A DNA stretch of 64,000 bases from contig JOSY01000011.1 of the NCBI GenBank assembly GCA_000746765.1, positions 27,200 to 91,199 of the forward strand, in the 5' to 3' direction. Of the stretch, positions 20,577-38,960 are shown in pieces; within the stretch, counting starts at the first letter, position 1, and each line of letters starts with the position of its first letter. The notes below the pieces were generated by a model. The model was given only the letters and a program-made list of their open reading frames with translations. It searched no databases and was not told where the DNA came from. The DNA comes from Marine Group I thaumarchaeote SCGC AAA799-D11. Its GTDB lineage: Archaea; Thermoproteota; Nitrososphaeria; Nitrososphaerales; Nitrosopumilaceae. The position numbers were made by a program, and so were the translations under genes.

Positions 20577-20677
20577 GCAGAGATATCGAAGCCCGGTCAA
20601 CCGAGAGGGACTCAAGATCTTCTAAATAGGAAATCCCTTCTCTCAGGAGTTCGTGGGTTCAAATCCCACTCTCTGCA
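20577..20677 (+). tRNA. tRNA-Leu(CAA) with ~16-nt intron at 20617-20632
   Basis: Acceptor GCAGAGA/TCTCTGC, type II variable arm CTC-TCAG-GAG, T-arm GTGGG-TTCAAAT-CCCAC; anticodon stem AGGGA/TCCCT is continuous only if the 16 nt after position 37 are removed; mature length ~85 nt. Confidence 0.88.
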
Positions 20678-36882: not shown

Positions 36883-37006
36883 TCCCAAGCGAAGGAATTG
36901 AACCTTCGACAACCCGGTTTCTGTATGCCTGATATGCTGTTATTCGGTCAGCCATCTAAAGCCAACAACTACAGCCGGAAGCTCTACCAGGCTGAGCTAG
37001 CTTGGG
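36883..37006 (-). tRNA. tRNA-Tyr(GTA) with ~50-nt intron (36919-36968)
   Basis: Acceptor CCCAAGC/GCTTGGG, D-arm GCTC...GAGC, loop CTGTAG then 50 nt then A38, stem TCCGG/CCGGG, T-arm GAAGG-TTCAATT-CCTTC; mature length 74 nt. Confidence 0.9.
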
Positions 37007-37749: not shown

Positions 37750-38160
37750 ATGAGCAAACCTTCTGATCTTGGTTCATTAAAAATAGGCTCTTACATTCTA
37801 TTGCCACATTCAGATCAACCAAGTGGAGAACCATGTAGAATTGTTGAATATGATACCTCAAAACCAGGAAAACACGGTGCGGCAAAAGCAAGAATTGTTG
37901 CTGAAGGAATTTTTGATGGTCAAAAAAGACCACACGTAGGACCTGTCAGTATGCAAATCCATGTACCTATGATCAACAAAAAAGTAGGTCAGATTATCTC
38001 CATGACTGGTGATACTGTTCAGTTGATGGACTCTGAAACTTTTGAAACAATTGATGTCACATTAATTGATGATGAAGTTAAAGGAAAATTAGAAAACGGA
38101 CAAAATGTGGAATACTGGGTTGTAATGGATAAAACTAAAATCATGCGCATTAAGACATAG
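37750..38160 (+). CDS. Translation factor aIF5A
   Basis: SKPGKHGAAKARIVAEGIFDGQKR hypusination loop, C-terminal OB fold. Confidence 0.94.
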   Translation: MSKPSDLGSLKIGSYILLPHSDQPSGEPCRIVEYDTSKPGKHGAAKARIVAEGIFDGQKRPHVGPVSMQIHVPMINKKVGQIISMTGDTVQLMDSETFETIDVTLIDDEVKGKLENGQNVEYWVVMDKTKIMRIKT

Positions 38161-38163
38161 TGC

Positions 38164-38228
38164 GGATGCTGATGATTATCGGAAAAGCCGTCTGATTTAT
38201 GATGACGATTATGAGTGTTGAAGCGTCC
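38164..38228 (+). ncRNA. C/D box sRNA; D guide predicted to target C34 of a CAU-anticodon tRNA
   Basis: Stem GGATGC(38164-38169)/GCGTCC(38223-38228); C TGATGA 38170-38175; D' CTGA 38192-38195; C' ATGATGA 38199-38205; D TTGA 38218-38221; guide CGATTATGAGTG. Confidence 0.75.
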
Positions 38229-38270: not shown

Positions 38271-38960
38271 ATGAAACTTGCTTCTCTCTTTTCAGGTGGA
38301 AAAGACAGTACTTATGCTATTTACTTGGCACAAAAACAAGGACATGAAATCAAATGTTTACTAAGCATATTTACAAAATCTGAAGAAAGTCACTTACTTC
38401 ATCATCCAAACATACAATGGACAAAACTACAAGCAGAATCAATGAAAATTCCTCAAATTACAGTTAATTCTAAATCTGATGACACAAACGATGAACTGTC
38501 TTTGTTAGAAAATCTACTAAAAACTGCAAAAGATGAGTATGGAATTGAAGGATTAGTTCATGGTGGCATCAAGAGTAATTTTCAAAAAGAAAAATTTGAA
38601 AAAGTTTGTTCTAAATATGGTTTAACTGTAGTTGCACCCTTGTGGAATCTAGACTCCGAACAGTACATGAATGATTTACTTGAAGCAAATTTTGTTTTTG
38701 TTATGATTACTGTATCCTCTGATGGGTTAGATGATTCTTGGTTGGGAAAAGTAATTGGCACAACTGAAATTAAAACTCTAAAGGAATTATCTGACAAGTT
38801 TGGATTTAATTTAAATTTTGAGGGTGGTGAAGCTGAAACATTTGTAATTGATTGCCCTCTCTTTTCTAACTCGATCAAAATTAATCGTGCCGAAAAAAAA
38901 TGGGATGGTTATAGAGGAAGGTTTGAAATAGTGGATGCGGAATTGAATTACAATGCTTGA
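38271..38960 (+). CDS. Diphthine-ammonia ligase-like (Dph6/ATP-PPase) protein
   Basis: MKLASLFSGGKDSTYAIYLAQKQGHE (PP-loop), VHGGIKSNFQKEKFEKVC, EGGEAETFVIDCPLF. Confidence 0.85.
   Translation: MKLASLFSGGKDSTYAIYLAQKQGHEIKCLLSIFTKSEESHLLHHPNIQWTKLQAESMKIPQITVNSKSDDTNDELSLLENLLKTAKDEYGIEGLVHGGIKSNFQKEKFEKVCSKYGLTVVAPLWNLDSEQYMNDLLEANFVFVMITVSSDGLDDSWLGKVIGTTEIKTLKELSDKFGFNLNFEGGEAETFVIDCPLFSNSIKINRAEKKWDGYRGRFEIVDAELNYNA

Follow-up and report, generated by a model that had tools for sequence, protein, structure and literature searches.

A predicted dual-guide box C/D sRNA gene between the aIF5A and Dph6 genes of a marine thaumarchaeote, with predicted targets in elongator tRNA-Met and 23S rRNA

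Anatomy of the locus

We analyzed a 64,000-nt stretch of DNA from a Marine Group I thaumarchaeote (hereafter, the window), in which a 65-nt element lies between the genes for aIF5A and Dph6. An initial annotation had proposed a C/D box sRNA at this place, and the sequence was indeed present between these two genes. The following features are all on the forward (+) strand.

37750-38160 (+): aIF5A gene, upstream; NF003076 and TIGR00037 above cut-off
38164-38228 (+): box C/D sRNA gene, predicted dual guide, 65 nt; sequence, covariance model (90.3 bits), found in 86/95 genus genomes
38164-38170 (+): 5' strand of the terminal stem, GGATGCT; pairs with 38222-38228
38171-38173 (+): kink-turn bulge of 3 nt, G-A-U; its bases 2-3 are bases 1-2 of box C
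38172-38178 (+): box C, ATGATTA, placed in the register of a kink-turn; from an alignment of 97 unique homologues, most relatives having ATGATGA
38179-38191 (+): D' guide spacer TCGGAAAAGCCGT, 13 nt; pairing core GGAAAAGCCG at 38181-38190, 10/10 against the genome's own 23S rRNA
38192-38195 (+): box D', CTGA, invariant in the homologue alignment
38199-38205 (+): box C', ATGATGA; TGATGA invariant in the genus set, which is unbiased
38206-38217 (+): D guide spacer CGATTATGAGTG, 12 nt; pairing core GATTATGAGT at 38207-38216, 10/10 against elongator tRNA-Met
38218-38221 (+): box D, TTGA, non-consensus; UGA invariant, first base U, A or C among homologues
38222-38228 (+): 3' strand of the terminal stem, AGCGTCC; partner of 38164-38170
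38271-38960 (+): Dph6 (diphthine--ammonia ligase) gene, downstream; TIGR03679 above cut-off

Only 3 nt separate the aIF5A stop codon from the sRNA stem, and the ATG of Dph6 begins 43 nt beyond the sRNA end. The full order of 38164-38228 is GGATGCT-GAT-GATTA-TCGGAAAAGCCGT-CTGA-TTTA-TGATGA-CGATTATGAGTG-TTGA-AGCGTCC. With 65 nt and boxes C, D', C' and D in this order, the element corresponds to the archaeal box C/D sRNAs (50-70 nt). Compared with the consensus sequences RUGAUGA for boxes C and C' and CUGA for boxes D and D' (PMC7994747), boxes C' and D' are canonical, and boxes C (AUGAUUA) and D (UUGA) each deviate at one base. The family covariance model scored 90.3 bits at this position (E 9e-26), and its next-best match in the window scored 14.3 bits.

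The register of box C differs from that of the initial annotation, which had read TGATGA as box C, a terminal stem of six pairs and a D' spacer of 16 nt. To fit a kink-turn, box C must be moved 3 nt downstream; the T of the earlier motif forms stem pair 7 and covaries, and its G is replaced by A in relatives, where the first base of the bulge is G or A and the AUGA after it is invariant. The stem thus contains seven pairs, and after this shift the D' spacer (13 nt) is close in length to the D spacer (12 nt). A stem, a 3-nt bulge and two sheared G-A pairs are accordingly found together, with the GA of box C and the UGA of box D invariant.

Box C position 6 and box D position 1 (C6-D1) are U-U in this sRNA and do not form a Watson-Crick pair. 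Among the 97 unique homologues, 90 likewise had no Watson-Crick pair at C6-D1 (21 of these G-U); the Watson-Crick cases were four G-C, all with box D CUGA, two A-U and one U-A. Box D itself was UUGA or AUGA in these homologues, except for CUGA in four Nitrososphaera types. The C6-D1 Watson-Crick pair is a criterion of the predictor SnoReport 2.0 and does not appear among the three requirements for L7Ae binding, namely the stem, the sheared GA pairs and the box C uridine (PMC7994747). All three are retained in the sRNA despite its degenerate terminal C/D motif.

We also searched Rfam, and 38164-38228 fell below the cut-off of every C/D family; the archaeal family sR-tMet (RF02163) reached 16.9 bits, against a gathering cut-off of 50. 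The same genome contains adjacent genes for fibrillarin (PF01269, E 7.9e-90) and Nop5 (PF01798, E 1.2e-69) on contig C55. As far as sequence can tell, 38164-38228 is confirmed as a box C/D sRNA gene with the same predicted job as sR-tMet, standing outside that Rfam family.

Conservation and covariation across Nitrososphaeria

Conservation of boxes and guides in relatives, as expected from the initial annotation, was found both within the genus and across the class. BLASTN detected homologues in 86 of the 95 genus genomes, including 53 of the 56 good-quality ones, and the covariance model gave matches at E <= 0.01 in 337 of 400 class genomes, of which approximately 50 are weak (E > ~1e-8) and possibly represent other C/D sRNAs. 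Genomes without a strong match were mostly, though not all, incomplete MAGs. A pattern scan matched loci in Nitrosopumilus, Nitrosarchaeum, Nitrosopelagicus, Nitrosotalea, Nitrosotenuis and Nitrososphaera. Since the TGATGA of box C' and the D guide were both part of the search pattern for loci outside the genus, invariance of the D guide is informative within the genus only.

All seven pairs of the terminal stem showed changes on both sides, and 98.9% of the alignment cells were paired, compared with 34-49% in slid controls. Pair 7, for example, is T-A here and T-G or C-G in relatives. The gene order was retained as well: where the flanking sequence was long enough, Dph6 lay 3' of the sRNA at almost every Nitrososphaeria locus, and many loci had aIF5A closely 5'.

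Several homologues varied on this plan. The Nitrososphaera-type homologues L166, L171, L192, L211 and L223 have the canonical box D CTGA, and their D'-C' spacer is 10-14 nt or more, compared with the usual 4-5 nt in Nitrosopumilales. The tRNA-Met guide sequence also occurred in C/D-like RNAs that have no 23S guide, in a Thermoprotei MAG (as the D' guide) and in an Altiarchaeota MAG (L154, L197). Pattern matches in the bacterial MAGs L183 and L213 and in the uncultured archaeon L226 were rejected as probable chance matches, with a poor fit to the full anatomy of the family.

Guide matches to elongator tRNA-Met and 23S rRNA

The genome, a 1.36-Mb MAG that is 87% complete, contained 37 tRNA genes collected by covariance model, three of them with the anticodon CAU. 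We took the intron-containing CAU tRNA at C52:14527-14640 (GCCGGGG...CCCCGGC) as elongator tRNA-Met; of the remaining two, judged from their stems, L044 resembles the initiator and L045, of the GGGCCCG type, tRNA-Ile2. The D guide core GATTATGAGT was complementary at 10 of 10 positions to A31-C40 (ACUCAUAAUC) of elongator tRNA-Met, and the N+5 position fell on C34; no other perfect D-guide site was found among the sense tRNAs and rRNAs of the genome. The earlier assignment of this guide to C34 is therefore upheld by a tRNA of the same genome, and these matches support the prediction that the D guide directs Cm34 of elongator tRNA-Met(CAU).

The D guide had been given as 12 nt, which holds for the length of the spacer, but its outermost C and G lie outside the tRNA match, and pairing is confined to positions 2-11 upstream of box D. 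These ten positions were invariant in the 86-row genus alignment, whereas the outermost two, that is, position 1 and the base next upstream of the core, varied among relatives. Ten invariant positions with variable flanks are consistent with the rule of Yang et al. 2016 (cited in PMC7089733), by which no more than 10 nt of a substrate are read by a guide.

An intron lay upstream of ACUCAUAAUC in all 30 genus tRNA-Met loci read. It appears to sit at about 30/31, the sole position that restores the full anticodon stem, the exact splice sites being predicted on this basis. With the intron placed there, the D-guide target A31-C40 would be wholly exonic (exon 2), so that methylation could precede or follow splicing. 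The tRNA-Met gene is intronless in Nitrososphaera-type genomes and in one further archaeon, with the exonic bases of the D target unchanged. Minimum free energy folds of the pre-tRNA-Met and of the mature tRNA did not give a cloverleaf.

For the D' guide, the initial annotation had named no target. A scan of the genome's RNAs found that its core GGAAAAGCCG was perfectly complementary (10/10) to nt 2599-2608 of the genome's own 23S rRNA, with the N+5 position at nt 2602, which aligns with E. coli C2510, close to the peptidyl transferase centre; no other perfect D'-guide site was found among the sense tRNAs and rRNAs of the genome. Both guides thus have complementarity in the range of ~10-12 nt and a target at N+5, C34 in one case and C2510 in the other. 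As a background, 621 of 127,344 other window 10-mers (0.49%) had a perfect complement among the sense tRNA and rRNA 10-mers of the genome, and at this rate per match, chance is an unlikely source of two perfect matches within a single element.

The D' guide and its 23S target also changed together, as GGAAAAGCC/GGCUUUUCC versus GGAAGAGCC/GGCUCUUCC. Guide GGAAAAGCC occurred with 23S CGGCUUUUCC in Nitrosopumilus-type genomes, Nitrosarchaeum and Cenarchaeum, and guide GGAAGAGCC with 23S CGGCUCUUCC in the genomes of L171 and L223 (Nitrososphaera types) and of L222. This covariation strengthens the assignment of the D' guide to 23S rRNA.

A further observation concerns the Nitrosotalea-like homologues L159, L164, L165, L173, L177, L179, L191 and L214, in which a trailer (A/T)GGCTTTTCT just 3' of the stem has 9-10 nt of complementarity to the D' guide of the same RNA; some of these trailers track the variable base of the guide. 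In the precursor, such a trailer could keep the D' guide covered. No D'-complementary trailer was seen in the genome of the window.

Predicted function, alternatives and known systems

We infer the following course from the anatomy and the target matches. The region 38164-38228 would be transcribed, probably within an aIF5A(-Dph6) transcript, and then trimmed to the box C/D sRNA. Given the 3-nt gap to the aIF5A stop codon, processing out of the aIF5A transcript is probable, and sRNAs are described as maturing from whatever transcribed context holds them (PMC7994747). A kink-turn would arise from the 7-bp stem together with boxes C and D, and a k-loop from boxes C' and D'; each would be bound by L7Ae and would recruit Nop5 and fibrillarin. 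The D guide GATTATGAGT on A31-C40 would then direct fibrillarin to 2'-O-methylate C34 of elongator tRNA-Met(CAU), and the D' guide GGAAAAGCCG on 23S nt 2599-2608 would direct formation of Cm at nt 2602. We assign a probability of about 0.92 to this reading, in which a single dual-guide sRNA specifies Cm34 of elongator tRNA-Met and Cm at the 23S equivalent of C2510.

An alternative is a cis-acting role: as a kink-turn in the 3' UTR of aIF5A or the 5' leader of Dph6, the element would bind L7Ae and regulate both genes, the guide matches being secondary or historical. Its class-wide conserved position by Dph6, often just after aIF5A, would agree with such a role, as would the known binding of L7Ae to k-turns in other RNAs (PMC5539422). 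However, the D guide core does not vary within the genus, whereas drift is seen in the D'-C' loop and at box C position 6, the D' guide covaries with rRNA, and a pure k-turn would have no use for two matches of 10 nt with N+5 on C34; we therefore regard this explanation as very improbable. We place just as little weight on the possibility that the D guide serves the initiator tRNA-Met, tRNA-Ile2 or several CAU tRNAs. The anticodon loop CUCAUAA is common to all three, but G31 and C39 in the initiator and Ile2 types introduce one wobble and one mismatch within the duplex and lower the pairing score, whereas the match to A31, U39 and C40 of the elongator is complete, also in the intronless Nitrososphaera-type genomes. 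The initiator tRNA-Met and tRNA-Ile2 were accordingly dropped as D targets.

Box motifs are short, and weak C/D-like matches occur throughout the window, so we also considered whether C/D-like boxes had come together by chance in this A+T-rich intergenic region. This explanation is refuted by the class-wide conservation, and the compensatory changes in the stem, the distance between 90.3 bits here and 14.3 bits for the second-best match in the window, and two perfect guide matches with a background of 0.49% each leave it a negligible probability.

The predicted dual-guide sRNA has counterparts for its tRNA target. A C/D sRNA guides Cm34 of tRNA-Met in Haloferax (PMC2584109), and Pyrococcus sR49 is predicted to do the same (PMC7994747). 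Like sR49 and the Haloferax volcanii guide (Rfam sR-tMet RF02163), the thaumarchaeal RNA is a box C/D sRNA for elongator tRNA-Met with a locus of its own; it differs from them in that its second guide has a 23S rRNA target. Furthermore, the haloarchaeal guide is reported to pair partly with the intron, so that methylation must precede splicing (PMC2584109), whereas the thaumarchaeal target would lie entirely in exon 2. Human SNORD97 and SCARNA97 are likewise box C/D RNAs for 2'-O-methylation of C34 in elongator tRNA-Met(CAT) (PMC6601510), but they belong to eukaryotic nucleolar and Cajal-body RNPs, and no sequence relation to SNORD97 was detectable (model 13.3 bits, cut-off 45).

With archaeal rRNA double guides (Dennis et al. 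2015, PMC4644070), the sRNA shares two guides, short spacers and a target near the peptidyl transferase centre, and helices 90-93 are a reported methylation hotspot (PMC4644070). Those double guides usually address two nearby rRNA sites, whereas the thaumarchaeal sRNA would address one tRNA and one rRNA. In Pyrobaculum, according to Lui 2018 as summarized in PMC7994747, the second guide of tRNA-guiding sRNAs has no target.

RNA-guided formation of Cm34 in tRNA-Met is thus already known, and what is notable here is the combination of a tRNA and an rRNA target in one RNA, and its deep conservation. The literature searched contained no description of a two-target version kept across the class; an earlier prediction in the N. 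maritimus genome paper or in the Pyrobaculum C/D survey is possible. The prediction extends RNA-guided Cm34 of elongator tRNA-Met from Euryarchaeota and humans to ammonia-oxidising archaea, specifies two methylations that are testable in cultured Nitrosopumilus, and offers an example of one C/D sRNA with tRNA and rRNA targets, the latter backed by guide-target covariation. It is conceivable, though we think it unlikely, that across Nitrososphaeria this RNA couples methylation of the tRNA-Met wobble position to that of C2510, and that its locus was kept with aIF5A and Dph6 as a set of co-expressed elongation tuners.

The window also contains two intron-containing tRNAs, tRNA-Tyr(GTA) at 36883-37006 (-) and tRNA-Leu(CAA) at 20577-20677 (+); both were found by Rfam, and ARAGORN, which reported no tRNA in the window, missed both. 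Elsewhere in the genome, we noted a second box C/D sRNA candidate, L350 (G000:C77:154641-154699, +). No target was found for its D' guide; its D guide GATCTTGAGT is complementary at 10 of 10 positions to tRNA-Leu(CAA), with N+5 at C34, and this predicted target is the intron-containing tRNA at window positions 20577-20677.
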